Part shown: one piece after another, positions 4,161 to 10,089 of the stretch
How the letters are laid out: every line of letters starts with the position of its first letter
Position numbering within the stretch: position 1 is the first letter of the stretch
Origin: a bacterium
GTDB lineage: Bacteria; JAJRZV01
Assembly: GCA_024275095.1 (NCBI GenBank)
Contig: JAJRZV010000060.1
Location: 1 to 17,197, forward strand
Direction: 5' to 3'
DNA length: 17,197 bases
Made by a program: the position numbers and the translations under genes
Notes under the pieces: model-generated
What the model was told of the DNA's origin: nothing
The model's input: only the letters and a program-made list of their open reading frames with translations
Databases searched by the model: none

Positions 4161-4829
4161 ATGCAGGATGTAAATACAGACCAGCGGGAAATTTTGAAAA
4201 GAGTTCACGAGGAACTGAAGTCGTTGTATGGAACTCCACGGCTTCACAGAAGAGATTTCAACGAGGTAATGCTCAGGACCATTCTTTCACAGAATACCAA
4301 TGATGACCTCAGGGATCGTGCATATCTTCGGCTCAAGAGACGTTTTCCACGACTTGAGGATCTGGAGAAGGCGTCGGTGGAAGAGATCGTTGAGGTTATC
4401 AGTGTTTGTGGATTGGCGCGTCAAAAAGCACAGACCATTAAAAATTATCTTGCTTGGCTCCGCCGTAAATACGGGAGATTGCGTCCAAGAGGAATATGTG
4501 ATGAAAACACACAGTCTCTTCTTTCAGAGCTTCTCAGCATCAAGGGCGTGGGTGAGAAAACAGCGCGTGTGGTCCTGGCCTTTGCCTGCGGGAGGGATAT
4601 GTTTCCTGTGGATACCCATATTCATAGGGTGTTGAAGCGGCTCGGGGTTATTCCTTCAAATGCCAGTCGTGAACTTGCCCATAAACTCGTGCCGGATCTT
4701 CTTCCTGAAGGAGTATCAGCAGCGCTTCACCTCAATCTCATCCGTTTCGGGAGGGAAATATGTCAATCAAGAAAACCTCGGTGTGCCTCCTGTCCATTTT
4801 CATCCTTTTGTCCTTCATTCTCTGCATAA
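4161..4829 (+). CDS. nth: Endonuclease III-like HhH-GPD DNA glycosylase/AP lyase
   Basis: This base-excision repair enzyme removes oxidised pyrimidines and cleaves abasic sites. The 222-residue protein has the helix-hairpin-helix LLSIKGVGEKTARVV with the catalytic lysine at residue 133. The catalytic aspartate is at residue 151 in FPVDTHIHR, and the 18-residue spacing equals that of E. coli Nth (K120/D138). The C-terminal [4Fe-4S] loop is C201-x6-C208-x2-C211-x5-C217, the canonical pattern. The ATG at 4161 gives a normal length; an in-frame extension to 4005 would run back across the divergent gene and is rejected. The last 70 bases, covering all four cluster cysteines, overlap the start of the next gene in another frame. 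The sequence is a divergent family member, so substrate preference is uncertain. Confidence 0.93.
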   Translation: MQDVNTDQREILKRVHEELKSLYGTPRLHRRDFNEVMLRTILSQNTNDDLRDRAYLRLKRRFPRLEDLEKASVEEIVEVISVCGLARQKAQTIKNYLAWLRRKYGRLRPRGICDENTQSLLSELLSIKGVGEKTARVVLAFACGRDMFPVDTHIHRVLKRLGVIPSNASRELAHKLVPDLLPEGVSAALHLNLIRFGREICQSRKPRCASCPFSSFCPSFSA

Positions 4830-6232
4830 GCAAGGAACAGGTTTTCGCTGCACAGTGGTACCTCTACTCCGGTGCTTCTGCACGCGGTGCTGTCACTCGA
4901 GGATTCGAGGGTGTACTGGCCGAATTCGTGCCCGAAGACGAGCGCATTTATGGATATGTCCAGGCTCAGGCAGAAGTGAACTGGAATCGGTTAGGAGGGG
5001 TTTTATCCCTGGGTACATGGGAGATTTCGGAAGACACTATAGAATCCGGTGCATTGCTTGATCGCACGGAGAATCGGTTGTTCATTGATGAGATGTATTT
5101 CTATTATGGGGATGATGAAAAGAATTTTTTTACTTCACAGATTGGCTGGACGAACACGGTAATTCTCGACGGATATATTCTGGATGATTATTATCCGGGA
5201 GGAACACTAAGGTTTAACTTTTTACGTGGAGAAAAGCAGCTTTCTTTGGAAGGCTATGTCTGTAAAGTAGAAACTGACTCACTCATCAGCGGGAGCAAGT
5301 CCTTTATTAGTGGTACACAATTAACGTATTCGGCAAAGCCGTCGGGGCTTACTCTAAAGGGTGGTTTCCACGTACTTATTGAGCGTGATGACTATACCAA
5401 GCAGTTTCTCAATGAAACCTTTTACACCTTTCTGCTGGCAGCGCGTGAACTTATTATGAAAAGACTGCTGGAGAAAACACAGAATTCTGCGTTAGCTGAA
5501 TATATGTATTATCAACTTCTCACTTCCGAAGTGGTTAAAGAAGCAAAGGCCGATATTTACTGGATTACCACACGTCTTCAATGGACAGGGGAAAACTGGG
5601 ATTTTTCCTTACTCGGCGCTATTGATACAGGCACGGGCCGGGTTCATACCGAAATGCCCACGTCCACAGGAGGGGTCGTTGAATCTGATAAGGACATTAT
5701 CTTTTTCGGGTACATGTGGAAGGGTGAGGTGTCCTGGAAATTTCTCGAATGGATGAAAGCTTCCCCTGCTTTGTTGTGGATGAGTGGAAGTGCTGATTAC
5801 TATCGCCGTATTATTGAAAGCGGGAGGGTGGACGCATTCCTTTCCTTCCGACCACTTATTTACGACTCCGCAGTGTTTTTCCAGCAGGGTCTCAACCTGG
5901 GCCTGCACTCTTCTGCTCCTGTTACTGCTGGTCTGTTCGGGACAGGTCTTGTCGTTCCACAGCTTTCGTTTGAAGCCACATTGTGGAAGAGATTTGAGGT
6001 GACATTAAGCAATATTGGCATTTTTACAGAGAAAAAGCCCTCAGAAGCCCCGAGTGCTTTCATAGGATATGAGATGGATTTTCTTTTGCAATGGAACTTC
6101 TGGAAAGATTTTTCCCTCTCCACAGAACTGGATGTTTTTGTTCCGGGTGGTTTTTTTAAAAACACAGGTGGCACGGGGGTAATGTGGACACTTGGTCTGG
6201 ACTGGGCGGTGGAAGGAGAAGGTTGTTTTTAG
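4760..6232 (+). CDS. Exported outer-membrane beta-barrel-type protein of unknown family
   Basis: This 490-residue protein has a clear signal peptide: MSIKKTS, then a hydrophobic core VCLLSIFILLSFILCI and a polar end VFAA before QWYL. The mature part alternates aromatic and polar residues in short amphipathic stretches (for example WNFWKDFSLSTELDVFVPGG) and ends in Phe (EGCF), as outer-membrane barrels recognised by the BAM machinery do. I do not recognise the family, so transport or structural function cannot be assigned. The start is supported by a GGGAGG ribosome site seven bases upstream and by the signal peptide. This places the first 70 bases inside nth, so the two genes are probably coupled. 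It is followed after 45 bases by the ECF sigma gene in the same direction, making it a possible client or trigger of that system. Confidence 0.82.
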   Translation: MSIKKTSVCLLSIFILLSFILCISKEQVFAAQWYLYSGASARGAVTRGFEGVLAEFVPEDERIYGYVQAQAEVNWNRLGGVLSLGTWEISEDTIESGALLDRTENRLFIDEMYFYYGDDEKNFFTSQIGWTNTVILDGYILDDYYPGGTLRFNFLRGEKQLSLEGYVCKVETDSLISGSKSFISGTQLTYSAKPSGLTLKGGFHVLIERDDYTKQFLNETFYTFLLAARELIMKRLLEKTQNSALAEYMYYQLLTSEVVKEAKADIYWITTRLQWTGENWDFSLLGAIDTGTGRVHTEMPTSTGGVVESDKDIIFFGYMWKGEVSWKFLEWMKASPALLWMSGSADYYRRIIESGRVDAFLSFRPLIYDSAVFFQQGLNLGLHSSAPVTAGLFGTGLVVPQLSFEATLWKRFEVTLSNIGIFTEKKPSEAPSAFIGYEMDFLLQWNFWKDFSLSTELDVFVPGGFFKNTGGTGVMWTLGLDWAVEGEGCF

Positions 6233-6264
6233 AATAGAAACTTTTTTGGCTGGAGATTGTTTTA

Positions 6265-6277: not shown

Positions 6278-6823
6278 ATGGACAGTGATACAAAGCTGAT
6301 GATGAAGGTAAAGAATGATGATGAGGAGGCTTTCATGATTTTGTTCGAGAAATACTCGCCGCGAATTCTTGGATACCTCATGCGCAATGGAGCTTCTCGC
6401 GTAGAAGCTGAAGAAATTGTTCAGGAAGCCTTTTTGCGTGTATGGAGTGAACGCCGCCGTTTCAGACCGACGGGTACCTTTCAGGCGTGGCTTTATACCA
6501 TTGCCTCCCATATCCTCATAAATGAGAGGAAACGGTGGTCAAGGGAAATTACAGATGAACAGCAAATGCTTTCACATCCTGAAAAGTCAGATAATGACCC
6601 GTTTTACCGGGTATCTCTATCCCAGACTGTTGGACGCGTGAAGGGGGTACTTGAGCAGATGAAACAGGAGTATCGCATGGCTGTGCTTCTTGCAGCCGAA
6701 GGGCTTTCCTACCAGGAAGCTGCCCGGGCTATGGGGCTCTCGGTTTCAGCATATAAAACAGTGCTGTTCCGAGCGAGGGGGTTGCTGCGGTCTCATTTTG
6801 CAGAGGCGGGGAGGAAAGAATGA
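6278..6823 (+). CDS. ECF-type RNA polymerase sigma factor
   Basis: This group IV sigma factor directs RNA polymerase to a small regulon when released from its anti-sigma factor. The 181-residue protein starts MDSDTKLMMK. Region 2 is recognisable (AFMILFEKYSPRILGYLMRN, EAEEIVQEAFLRVW, then TFQAWLYTIASHILINERKR). After a variable linker, region 4 has the helix-turn-helix GLSYQEAARAMGLSVSAYKTVLFRARGLL. I prefer the ATG at 6278; in-frame TTG (6257) and GTG (6269) starts are possible but have no better ribosome site. The stop overlaps the anti-sigma start as ATGA, the standard arrangement that couples sigma and anti-sigma synthesis. It lies downstream of a barrel protein and upstream of a FecR-domain protein, so envelope signals are the likely input. 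Confidence 0.93.
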   Translation: MDSDTKLMMKVKNDDEEAFMILFEKYSPRILGYLMRNGASRVEAEEIVQEAFLRVWSERRRFRPTGTFQAWLYTIASHILINERKRWSREITDEQQMLSHPEKSDNDPFYRVSLSQTVGRVKGVLEQMKQEYRMAVLLAAEGLSYQEAARAMGLSVSAYKTVLFRARGLLRSHFAEAGRKE

Positions 6824-7263
6824 AGTGCAGCTCTGTCCAGAAATGGCTGAGCGCTTATGTGGATGGGAAGCTTGATTTTTGGCGTCAGCGACGTGTGGGA
6901 AAACACCTGCGAAACTGTGACGAATGCCAGATTGCGTTGAAACGTGAACAGGAGGCGGTCGCTGCTGTACAGCAACTGGTGAGCCACAACCCCGAAGTTG
7001 ACGCGAGATTCCGTGCAAGGTTTGCAGCACGATTTCAGGAACTTCGGAGACGCGAAAAGGAAGAGACGAGGCCCGTCACTCCGGTGCGGCGGTGGGTTCT
7101 GGCTGGCACGCTGGCAGGGGTAATGGCTGTATGTGCAATTGCAGGTGTTTACATTGTTCATTCGAGGATTCAACCTGTGGATGAGAAAGAGTTGCTTCTC
7201 AACCTGGACCTCTACGAAAACCTGGATGTCATTATTAACATGGAACGCATGAAAGGAGGTTGA
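6820..7263 (+). CDS. Zinc-finger (ZAS-domain) transmembrane anti-sigma factor
   Basis: The 147-residue protein has the ZAS zinc-binding pattern: Cys3, then His29-x3-Cys33-x2-Cys36 (KHLRNCDEC). It normally wraps around the cognate ECF sigma factor. A basic linker follows, then one transmembrane helix at about residues 92-114 (WVLAGTLAGVMAVCAIAG), leaving a short periplasmic tail. That tail contains LDLYENLDVIIN (129-140), closely matched in the next small protein. A GGGGAGG ribosome site lies inside the sigma gene and the ATG overlaps the sigma stop by four bases. The short periplasmic part is unlike the large sensor domains of RseA-type regulators. Sensing therefore probably depends on partner proteins encoded just downstream (inference). 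Confidence 0.9.
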   Translation: MKCSSVQKWLSAYVDGKLDFWRQRRVGKHLRNCDECQIALKREQEAVAAVQQLVSHNPEVDARFRARFAARFQELRRREKEETRPVTPVRRWVLAGTLAGVMAVCAIAGVYIVHSRIQPVDEKELLLNLDLYENLDVIINMERMKGG

Positions 7264-7267
7264 AAGG

Positions 7268-7471
7268 ATGACAATATGGGCCCTGGCAGCAGTGTTGCTG
7301 ATAAACGGTGGCGCAAAAGCGCCACCGGCGGAAAAGCAATTGACGCTTGAGGAACTAAGGGCAGTGGAAATGCTGGAAATACTGGAGAACCTGGACGTGC
7401 TTCTCGATGACTCTTTTCAGGAGAAAGCCACTGCAATTTCTTCTGTGAAGGCCCGGGAGGAGAAAAAATGA
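7268..7471 (+). CDS. Small exported protein of the sigma/anti-sigma operon
   Basis: This is a 67-residue protein of no recognised family. It opens with a short hydrophobic segment, MTIWALAAVLLINGGAKA, compatible with a signal peptide or membrane anchor, followed by PPAEKQ and an acidic helical region. Residues 36-47 (LEILENLDVLLD) resemble residues 129-140 of the anti-sigma factor (LDLYENLDVIIN), with the block ENLDV identical. The start is well supported by an AAAGGAGG site overlapping the end of the anti-sigma gene, four bases downstream of that stop. It overlaps the FecR gene by four bases (ATGA). The tight spacing on both sides and good ribosome sites argue that it is a real gene. A role as periplasmic partner of the anti-sigma tail is my inference. 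Confidence 0.75.
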   Translation: MTIWALAAVLLINGGAKAPPAEKQLTLEELRAVEMLEILENLDVLLDDSFQEKATAISSVKAREEKK

Positions 7472-8739
7472 AGGTACTGAAAACATTGTTGATTACAGGA
7501 CTGTTATGTGCAGCCAGCAGTGTTTATGGAGATGCTATTCCTGTGATTACCCGTGTTGAAGGCAGTGTGATGGTTTCTCTTAATGGCGCTTCTCACACGC
7601 CTGAAAGTGGTGAAAGAGTCGAGTGGGGTTCGGTTATTACCACTGGGGAAAATGCTACTGTAACACTGGAGACTCCAGACGGTAGTGAAATAACACTTTA
7701 TTCCCATTCACGACTCATGGTTGATGCATCCCTTATTGAGTCACGCCCACGTGTCATTCTTTCCTATGGGACAGTCTTCCAGAAGGTGGCAAAATTCTTC
7801 TCACGAATGGTGAGTTTCCGGGTGTTTTCTCCTTCAGCGGTATGTGGCGTCAGAGGTACGGAGTTTTACGTAGAGGCGGGGCTTGATGGTTCGTCCATGG
7901 TGTATGTGAAAGAGGGCAAGGTTGAAGTCGGGGGGGAACTATTAAAAGCGGGTGAGGCCCTTGAAGTTATCTGGAAAGACAACGGCTGGTTCAAGCGTCG
8001 CAAGAGAATGGAAAAGTACGCTCCCGGAGCCTGGGCGAGGAAGCATCACACACTTCCACGTGATATTGTCCGCCGGCTTATTGAAAGTGATAGGGTCAAT
8101 TTAAAAGAGGTGGAAAAGAGACTGCGTGAATCCCTGAAAGATGGGAAGGTTGCAGAGGGCAGGGCAGGTGACCTTGTCAAGGCTGAAATAGATGCGGGCC
8201 GATGGATGTCGCGCTTGATGCTTCTTTCTTCCAAGCCCTGGAAGGAACGTCTCGGTCCCAGGGCGAAGGCCTTTGTAAAAAAAGAGCTCAAGCGCACACA
8301 GAAAATTGCCAAGCGCATGAGACGGTTGCCTGTGCGAGTGCGACATGCTGTGGAAAGAGAAATGCGGCTTGTGAATATCCCTCACAAGATACTCGAGCGT
8401 TACCTTTCCATGAAACCTGAGGAAAGACGCCAGCTGATACAGCGTTTGAAAAAGTGGAAGTCGCTGACACCTGAACAGAGGGCGCGCGTGGTTCGCAATT
8501 ATATACGATTCAAAAAAATGCCACCGAAACTTCGCAAACGCATTATTGAAAATTACAAACGATTCATCAAGCTTCCCCCGGAAGAACGACGCAGGATTTT
8601 ACAGCTTTACCGCAAGTGGAAACAATTGCCGCCTGAGGAAAGGGAGCGCCTGCGGCAACGTTTTCGCGAAATGAAGCAGAAGAAGAAACATATGCCGCCA
8701 CGAAAAAAAGGTCGTCCGCCAAAGCCCAGACACCGGTAA
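7468..8739 (+). CDS. FecR-domain periplasmic protein with C-terminal basic repeats
   Basis: The 423-residue protein begins with a signal peptide (about 1-21, MKVLKTLLITGLLCAASSVYG). A FecR domain follows at about residues 25-165: VITRVEGSVMVSLNG, GENATVTLETPDGSEITL, the hallmark CGVRGTEFYV at 126-135, and VYVKEGKVEVGG. FecR domains in the periplasm usually relay signals to ECF sigma systems. From about residue 190 the protein becomes helical and very rich in Lys/Arg. It ends in five tandem 18-residue units (315-404) of the DUF3106 type (LPPEERRRILQLYRKWKQ) and a tail PRKKGRPPKPRHR. Unlike classical FecR there is no cytoplasmic anti-sigma segment; that job is done by the separate ZAS protein. 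A GGGAGGAG ribosome site and the four-base overlap with the preceding gene fix the start. Ligand and partner are unknown. Confidence 0.87.
   Translation: MKVLKTLLITGLLCAASSVYGDAIPVITRVEGSVMVSLNGASHTPESGERVEWGSVITTGENATVTLETPDGSEITLYSHSRLMVDASLIESRPRVILSYGTVFQKVAKFFSRMVSFRVFSPSAVCGVRGTEFYVEAGLDGSSMVYVKEGKVEVGGELLKAGEALEVIWKDNGWFKRRKRMEKYAPGAWARKHHTLPRDIVRRLIESDRVNLKEVEKRLRESLKDGKVAEGRAGDLVKAEIDAGRWMSRLMLLSSKPWKERLGPRAKAFVKKELKRTQKIAKRMRRLPVRVRHAVEREMRLVNIPHKILERYLSMKPEERRQLIQRLKKWKSLTPEQRARVVRNYIRFKKMPPKLRKRIIENYKRFIKLPPEERRRILQLYRKWKQLPPEERERLRQRFREMKQKKKHMPPRKKGRPPKPRHR
8410..8679 (+). repeat. Five tandem 54-base units encoding 18-residue basic repeats
   Basis: Residues 315-404 of the FecR protein divide exactly into five 18-residue units beginning MKPEERR, LTPEQRA, MPPKLRK, LPPEERR and LPPEERE. 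Each follows (L/M)xPexRxxxxxxyxxfKx. The repeat is clear at protein level but DNA identity between units is modest, so this is an old, maintained protein repeat rather than a recent DNA duplication. Each unit looks like one amphipathic helix preceded by a proline turn. Confidence 0.85.
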
Positions 8740-8743
8740 AACC

Positions 8744-9229
8744 ATGAAGAGCCCGCCTGCTCTACTCTCGGTCTTCGAGGTGAAACGTGTGGCGTCCGAG
8801 CTCAAAAAAGACGGAAAACGAATCGTGTTTACCAACGGGTGCTTTGACCTTTTCCACGCAGGCCATGCAGCCCTGCTCGCCTTCGCCAGGTTGCGTGGTG
8901 ATGTGCTCTTCGTGGGGCTCAACTCGGATAATTCTGTCAGGCGCATAAAAGGACCTGGCCGTCCCCTTCAACCTCAGCTTCTCCGCGCACAGGTGTTGCT
9001 CGCATGCCGCCACGTGGATTATGTGGTTATCTTTGAGGAAGATACCCCTTTCAATCTCATACGCATTTTGAAACCGCATGTGCTCGTCAAGGGTGCTGAT
9101 TGGAAGGGAAAAGAAGTGGTGGGAAGCACTATTGTACGCGAGTCAGGTGGTGAGGTTGTTTTTGCGCCGCTGGTAGAAGGCTTATCCACGTCAGCCCTTA
9201 TTGAAAAGATACGGAGAGGTTCGGGTTGA
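8744..9229 (+). CDS. rfaE2: RfaE2/HldE-C-type nucleotidyltransferase (heptose-1-phosphate adenylyltransferase)
   Basis: This cytidylyltransferase-fold enzyme probably adenylates D-glycero-beta-D-manno-heptose 1-phosphate to make ADP-heptose for LPS inner core. The 161-residue protein has FTNGCFDLFHAGH (residues 29-41, catalytic HxGH at 38-41). Further family blocks follow: VGLNSDNSVRRIKGPGRP, the ILKPHVLVKGADW segment, and STIVRESGGEVVFAPLVEG with a final GLST-type motif. It corresponds to the C-terminal half of E. coli HldE; the kinase half (HldE-N/RfaE1) is not here, so the activities are on separate genes. It starts four bases after the FecR stop and thus probably belongs to the same operon, linking that regulatory cluster to the outer membrane. 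A different sugar or alcohol phosphate substrate is possible. Confidence 0.88.
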   Translation: MKSPPALLSVFEVKRVASELKKDGKRIVFTNGCFDLFHAGHAALLAFARLRGDVLFVGLNSDNSVRRIKGPGRPLQPQLLRAQVLLACRHVDYVVIFEEDTPFNLIRILKPHVLVKGADWKGKEVVGSTIVRESGGEVVFAPLVEGLSTSALIEKIRRGSG

Positions 9230-9651: not shown

Positions 9652-10089
9652 TTGTGCTTCTCCTGCGGCGCTCCATCCTCAGATAGTAATCAAAATATTC
9701 GTGCTTGCTACGCTGCTCGAAATTCGTTCAGTACTGTGGCATCCCGGTAAAAAATAAGCCGGCCCGTTTTTAATACGTTGAACTTCATTACCGGGTCCGC
9801 CTCGTTCAGCCAGACACGGTGAAAGCGGTCGGATTTCAAAAGAAGCGAGAGATCAGCTTCAAGAGCAAGATACTCATGGTAAGACAGCTCTTTTGTCAGC
9901 ACAGCCATATCAAGGTCTGAACGTTCCGGCTGAAAATTTTCACTTCTCACAGAGCCGAACAGGCACACAACTTCGACTTCTGCTCGAAAAGAAAAAATTC
10001 TACAAGTTTTTCCAGCTCGTGAGCAGTTCGATTCAGGGGTTTTGTCCCTTTCCGGCGTTCACTTACGCCCGTTTTTGCTCTGCCTGCAT
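9641..10089 (-). pseudogene. mntA: MntA-like minimal nucleotidyltransferase antitoxin, inactivated by frameshifts
   Basis: The joined frames give MQAEQKRA, then VSERRKGTKPLNRTAHELEK and LVEFF, then RAEVEVVCLFGSVRSE with the SDLDMAVL block, then EQRSKHEYFDYYLRMERRRR ending at a TGA (9643-9641). GS(x)n-SDLD is the nucleotidyltransferase active-site signature. In MntA enzymes this AMPylates the HepT toxin and neutralises it. Breaks lie near 10063-10072, near 9985-9999 (in a T/A-rich run), and near 9715-9724. The longest intact stretch is 9968-9708, which holds the catalytic motif but not the N- or C-terminal parts. It starts two bases after the second DUF507 stop, so it was probably co-transcribed with those genes. 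The antitoxin and toxin are both broken, consistent with loss of the whole module. Confidence 0.83.

Follow-up and report, generated by a model that had tools for sequence, protein, structure and literature searches.

A widespread ECF sigma, anti-sigma and DUF3106 gene module in a form fused to FecR

The window (the whole 17,197-nucleotide stretch of DNA analysed) contains a four-gene cluster that is a FecR-fused variant of a widespread module composed of an ECF sigma factor, an anti-sigma factor, a small protein resembling the anti-sigma tail and a DUF3106 protein. We are nearly certain that the module exists and that its anti-sigma tails and small proteins carry a common motif. An earlier note on this DNA had proposed an envelope ECF/anti-sigma module in which separate exported proteins supply the periplasmic parts, and this part of the proposal stands. 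Its choice of FecR as the core component and of the small protein as an unrelated sensor does not. The analysis ties DUF3106 and the small exported proteins, which have no known function, to a single ECF/anti-sigma module that is spread over many phyla. The literature searched, 5.39 million papers largely without subscription titles, holds no mention of DUF3106 or DUF3619, and earlier descriptions of the gene neighbourhood may exist.

Gene layout and domains of the window locus

The following features are predicted in and around the cluster.

4760..6232, + strand: outer-membrane protein, likely AlgE/alginate-export-like, a conserved module neighbour directly upstream of the sigma gene
6237..6261, + strand: possible ECF-type autoregulatory promoter, GAAACTT-N15-GTT (weak evidence)
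6278..6823, + strand: ECF sigma factor (earliest possible start, TTG at 6257)
6820..7263, + strand: anti-sigma factor, zinc-binding class I, with an ATGA overlap with the sigma gene
7268..7471, + strand: small exported ORF, after a four-base gap from the anti-sigma gene
7468..8739, + strand: exported FecR-DUF3106 fusion protein, with an ATGA overlap with the small ORF
8744..9229, + strand: HldE C-terminal-like (RfaE2) adenylyltransferase (NCBIfam rfaE_dom_II, 1.6e-55)

The junctions read in the sequence bear out that the four genes are joined by four-base overlaps or a four-base gap, as had been noted before. Another four-base gap separates the FecR-DUF3106 gene from the HldE/RfaE2-like gene, so the transcription unit may extend beyond 8739, and this gene is probably co-transcribed with the cluster. 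It is absent from the recurrent neighbours of DUF3106 modules and is outside the conserved module; we dropped it as a pointer to LPS because it is not recurrent beside modules. The genome (G000) is 2.45 Mb and 97% complete; it has no close relative among the sampled genomes, all of which are related to it at the domain level only. Elsewhere in the window, and by eye, an ORF at 9708-9968 (- strand) resembles an MNT-type minimal nucleotidyltransferase (FGSVRSENFQPERSDLDMAVL) and the contig edge (2-346, + strand) encodes the C-terminal part of an apparent IS256-type transposase.

The sigma factor has 188 amino acids and contains regions 2 and 4 only (Pfam Sigma70_r2, 2.8e-15; Sigma70_r4_2, 2.1e-11). 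Its nearest relatives among the sigma factors of the collected modules are those of L084, L082, L085 and L083, with L133 sixth. The anti-sigma protein matches zf-HC2 (Pfam, 2e-10) and has the zinc-type Hx3Cx2C motif, followed by a single transmembrane segment (residues 95-113, hydropathy 2.09). Based on these domain families, it is predicted to hold the sigma factor at the inner membrane. Only 34 residues follow the membrane segment, an acidic, Leu-rich periplasmic tail (HSRIQPVDEKELLLNLDLYENLDVIINMERMKGG), in agreement with the previous description of an anti-sigma factor with almost no periplasmic sensor.

The fusion protein begins with a signal peptide and has no further transmembrane segment. 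It contains a FecR domain (Pfam, 1.5e-13, residues 56-153) and two DUF3106 stretches (6.3e-21, residues 307-377), and no other Pfam domain scores above the cut-off. The FecR domain is thus on a separate exported protein that lacks the cytoplasmic anti-sigma domain of FecR, as the earlier note had it, and we rejected a classical FecR regulator on this ground. The C-terminal part is built of 18-residue units (PEERRQLIQRLKKWKSLT, PEQRARVVRNYIRFKKMP, PKLRKRIIENYKRFIKLP, PEERRRILQLYRKWKQLP and more), and the 123 residues from 301 to 423 have a net charge of +33. The basic repeat tail had been read correctly as basic and repetitive, and its identity as DUF3106 had been missed. An AF2 model (mean pLDDT 79) has a confident FecR beta domain at about residues 25-180 and confident helical repeats at about 306-408; in the latter, DUF3106 is predicted to form regular 16-residue helices every 18 residues (pLDDT 94-98). 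Structure comparison pairs the FecR part with the anti-sigma regulator 4m0n and with the cell-surface-signalling domain of PupR (6ovk), at Z 16; all Foldseek/VIA matches cover residues 22-184 only, which is the FecR part. A sequence search for solved-structure relatives of DUF3106 found none that was convincing (best E 0.029).

Recurrence of the module and its neighbours

Of the 386 genomes sampled, 35 encode DUF3106, and scanning GTDB contigs brought in another 51 named loci (one of them, L123, matched through its FecR part only). The GTDB loci are from Nitrospirota, Rokubacteria, deltaproteobacterial groups, Planctomycetes/Brocadiales, Gammaproteobacteria, Bdellovibrionales, Omnitrophota, Verrucomicrobia and Desantisbacteria. 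In 68 of the 79 non-redundant DUF3106 loci there is an ECF sigma gene on the same strand, no more than 3.5 kb upstream, a linkage that is not built in because the loci were gathered by DUF3106 alone. Four of the remaining 11 are truncated at the edge of their contig (L067, L098, L108, L128) and seven appear to be genuinely unlinked. The genes thus co-occur elsewhere, and the four-gene layout is found in many phyla. Trp-rich DUF3106 relatives at L090:3778-4533 and L091:3879-4631 have no sigma gene nearby and form a separate subfamily.

It is DUF3106 that defines the module, and not FecR as had been supposed: the two domains are on one protein in only three of the 79 loci (the window, G183 and G037). 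The latter two are the only sampled representatives of one other candidate phylum, and the fusion is in both. In G183 the fusion protein has 464 amino acids, and its cluster also encodes a zf-HC2 anti-sigma factor, a small protein with the motif and one extra protein that is helical and exported; in G037 (Desantisbacteria) it is cut by the contig end. The extra protein of G183 (L073:1985-2581, 198 amino acids) is exported, helical and charged, is encoded between the anti-sigma factor and the small motif protein, and appears LTXXQ/Spy-type by eye, with no Pfam family.

A short outer tail is the rule for anti-sigma factors of the module (median about 48 amino acids). We called an anti-sigma factor with a transmembrane segment and a short outer tail in 60 loci, 25 of them with the Hx3Cx2C motif; a few of the calls fall on wrong ORFs from high-GC or truncated loci, and we excluded these from the tail statistics.

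The outer-membrane protein gene, which the earlier note had not linked to the module, is part of the conserved module neighbourhood. Homologues of the protein at 4760-6232 occupy the same upstream place in L082-L084 and L133, and they adjoin the module in G019, G167, G306 and G048 (upstream) and in G175 (downstream). A profile of five family members has matches in 14 of the 386 genomes, and the gene is beside a DUF3106 module in six of the eight best-matching genomes (G000, G019, G167, G306, G048 and G175); the first four supplied profile sequences, and independent support comes from G048 and G175. The family is likely an AlgE-like barrel on the basis of sequence, as three of the five members, though not the window protein itself, match Alginate_exp in Pfam (best E 2.7e-4). 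The AF2 model of the window protein was unusable (pLDDT 33). Gammaproteobacterial and Bdellovibrio loci encode other exported, barrel-like proteins directly downstream (with a weak OMP_b-brl match for L119).

Sites similar to GAAACTT-N15-GTT occur upstream of the sigma gene in L082-L084, and in seven of 67 loci against 1.85 in shuffles. The regulon was to be defined from this motif, and we claim none because the genome has no clear excess over chance: 14 sites against 8 in the control, and with N16 spacing 5 sites against 10.

The small exported protein and the anti-sigma tail

The window small ORF has no Pfam or NCBIfam family, and no Pfam family was found for any of the small proteins tested from other loci. 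At least 29 loci have an ORF of 67-120 amino acids with a hydrophobic N-terminal stretch between the anti-sigma and DUF3106 genes; the window gene order including the small gene recurs in 28 other loci, and the four-base overlap of the small gene seen in the window is found in 11 of the 29. The signal peptide of the window small ORF has no basic n-region, which makes export of this protein less sure than that of its relatives.

Small proteins and anti-sigma tails share an acidic, Leu-rich repeat of roughly six residues (a ENLDLLENLDLL-like motif). In the window this motif is ELLLNLDLYENLDVII in the anti-sigma tail and EMLEILENLDVLLDD in the small protein; in L084 the corresponding pair is MDMYRHMDLYEHMDMIEHM and MSMYEHMDMYEHMNVF. 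The window small protein matches its own anti-sigma tail locally with a composition-corrected Z of 5.2. Across the collection, the mean Smith-Waterman score of tails against small proteins of other loci is 35.4, and composition-preserving shuffles give 22.2 +/- 0.35, so the likeness goes far beyond composition. The small protein is not the unrelated third sensor that had been suggested, given that it carries the motif of the anti-sigma tail.

Tails and small proteins of the same locus score higher (44.1) than cross-locus pairs (35.4), and none of 20,000 permutations reached 44.1. When composition was corrected and one locus per clade was kept, 633 of 20,000 permutations reached the same-locus excess, and 1,335 of 20,000 did so without the W-type loci. 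Because the raw signal weakens under these controls for composition and kinship, we regard the case for tails and small proteins changing together in a locus as suggestive. The W-type small proteins (ELLEFLGEWET..WIDP) occur in Gammaproteobacteria and Geobacter beside tails ending in LDLYEDLEFYEWLA, and the gamma-type pairs have little in common beyond an E/L/F-rich core.

The net charge of anti-sigma tails has a median of -8 and that of DUF3106 proteins a median of +23; the window tail (-3) and small protein (-5) are only mildly acidic. In a reading that follows the earlier note, the FecR-DUF3106 protein would be the primary sensor, with its basic tail binding LPS or another anionic polymer. 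The strong positive charge (+33 over residues 301-423) and the adjoining HldE-like gene fit that reading, but FecR is absent from most DUF3106 modules, the hldE neighbour does not recur, and the basic repeats could find an intrinsic ligand in the acidic tail and the small protein, so we regard it as quite improbable.

By analogy with Pseudomonas, the small protein might instead be a MucE-like agonist peptide read by a site-1 protease that cuts the anti-sigma tail, with DUF3106 protecting the tail in the manner of MucB/RseB. In favour of this, AlgW is activated by MucE, which is small and periplasmic, the AlgW PDZ domain also reads the C-termini of mislocalised outer-membrane proteins, and MucB shields MucA (PMC8545111). 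The outer-membrane protein gene beside the module would also fit sensing of misassembled outer-membrane proteins. However, what the small proteins carry is the anti-sigma tail motif and not an outer-membrane protein C-terminus, the last residues of the window small protein are AREEKK, and the recurrent neighbours include no protease family. We consider this explanation improbable.

A possible mechanism and related systems

We propose that the basic helical-repeat DUF3106 protein may bind the short, acidic, Leu-rich anti-sigma tail in the periplasm, and that this binding would set whether the anti-sigma factor releases the sigma factor; charge, gene order and repeat structure point in this direction. 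The small exported protein, having the same motif as the tail, could compete for the DUF3106 repeats as a soluble decoy. Binding of the tail by DUF3106 with the small protein as competitor is a tentative reading, to which we give somewhat less than an even chance. The FecR fold in FecR/PupR regulators receives an outer-membrane signal, and in the window the FecR domain might anchor DUF3106 to, or couple it with, some other part of the envelope, perhaps the outer-membrane protein encoded next to it; this is the least certain step. There is no clear small gene in 39 of the 68 modules, which rules out the decoy as a universal requirement.

The absence of the small gene from many loci would also fit a role of DUF3106 and the small protein as outputs, in which the sigma factor drives its own operon for periplasmic chaperone-like proteins and any effect on the anti-sigma factor would be feedback. 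Spy and CpxP are periplasmic chaperone-like proteins made in envelope stress. Location of the sigma, small protein and DUF3106 genes in the same operon, the possible autoregulatory promoter at 6237 and a basic helical exported protein compatible with a chaperone all agree with this explanation, but it leaves unexplained both the anti-sigma tail motif in the small protein and the near-constant association of DUF3106 with a sigma gene. We judge it rather unlikely.

The decoy model, if it holds, is a concrete one for how short-tailed, sensor-less anti-sigma factors receive envelope signals. Its broadest form is doubtful: a secreted tail mimic would titrate a DUF3106 receptor off the anti-sigma factor, the balance of tail, mimic and receptor would set the output, FecR fusions would tie the receptor to the outer-membrane protein, and the whole would be a widespread and undescribed architecture.

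RseA/RseB, MucA/MucB with MucE, and CnrYXH are known systems whose logic the proposed mechanism would share, with different parts. RpoE-RseA-RseB of E. coli and AlgU-MucA-MucB of P. aeruginosa share with the module an ECF sigma factor and a single-pass anti-sigma factor, and RseB/MucB, like the proposed DUF3106 role, is a separate periplasmic protein acting on the periplasmic part of the anti-sigma factor. RseB/MucB is a lipid-binding protein unrelated to DUF3106, the RseA/MucA operons, unlike the module, are not known to encode a tail look-alike, and the periplasmic part of RseA/MucA is longer than the anti-sigma tails of the module (see also PMC8545111). No Pfam or NCBIfam match to an RseB/MucB-like lipid-binding protein was found among the window module proteins.

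CnrYXH of Cupriavidus metallidurans similarly pairs a short, sensor-less anti-sigma factor with a separate helical periplasmic sensor (PMC7689651). CnrX differs from the DUF3106 protein in its membrane anchor and its binding of Co/Ni, and CnrY differs from the window anti-sigma factor in belonging to class II; the system has neither DUF3106 nor a tail look-alike. FecIRA and PupIRB resemble the window in the FecR-type periplasmic fold (Z 16) and a nearby outer-membrane protein gene. They differ in that inhibition in the window is assigned, from its domains, to a separate zf-HC2 anti-sigma factor and not to the FecR protein, and in that the window outer-membrane protein is probably AlgE-like (by a weak Pfam match of its relatives) and not evidently a TonB-dependent transporter.

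The ECF sigma / DUF3619-like / DUF3106 neighbourhoods of Gammaproteobacteria have the gene order of the window, with clear relatives in Dyella, Luteimonas and Sedimenticola. Unlike the window locus, they usually have neither a zinc motif in the anti-sigma factor nor a FecR domain, and in many of them the small gene is missing or of the W-type. Exported proteins with alternating D/R repeats (QDRRELRQDRRE, RLDRKGERIDQRLD) are encoded directly upstream of the sigma gene in seven loci (L064, L069, L097, L099, L104, L136 and L143). Genes that appear DUF1800-like by eye (ILHALNRLTFGPRPGDVERVRAVG) lie downstream of DUF3106 in L095, L097, L100, L116 and L117, which are from Rokubacteria and some gammaproteobacteria.
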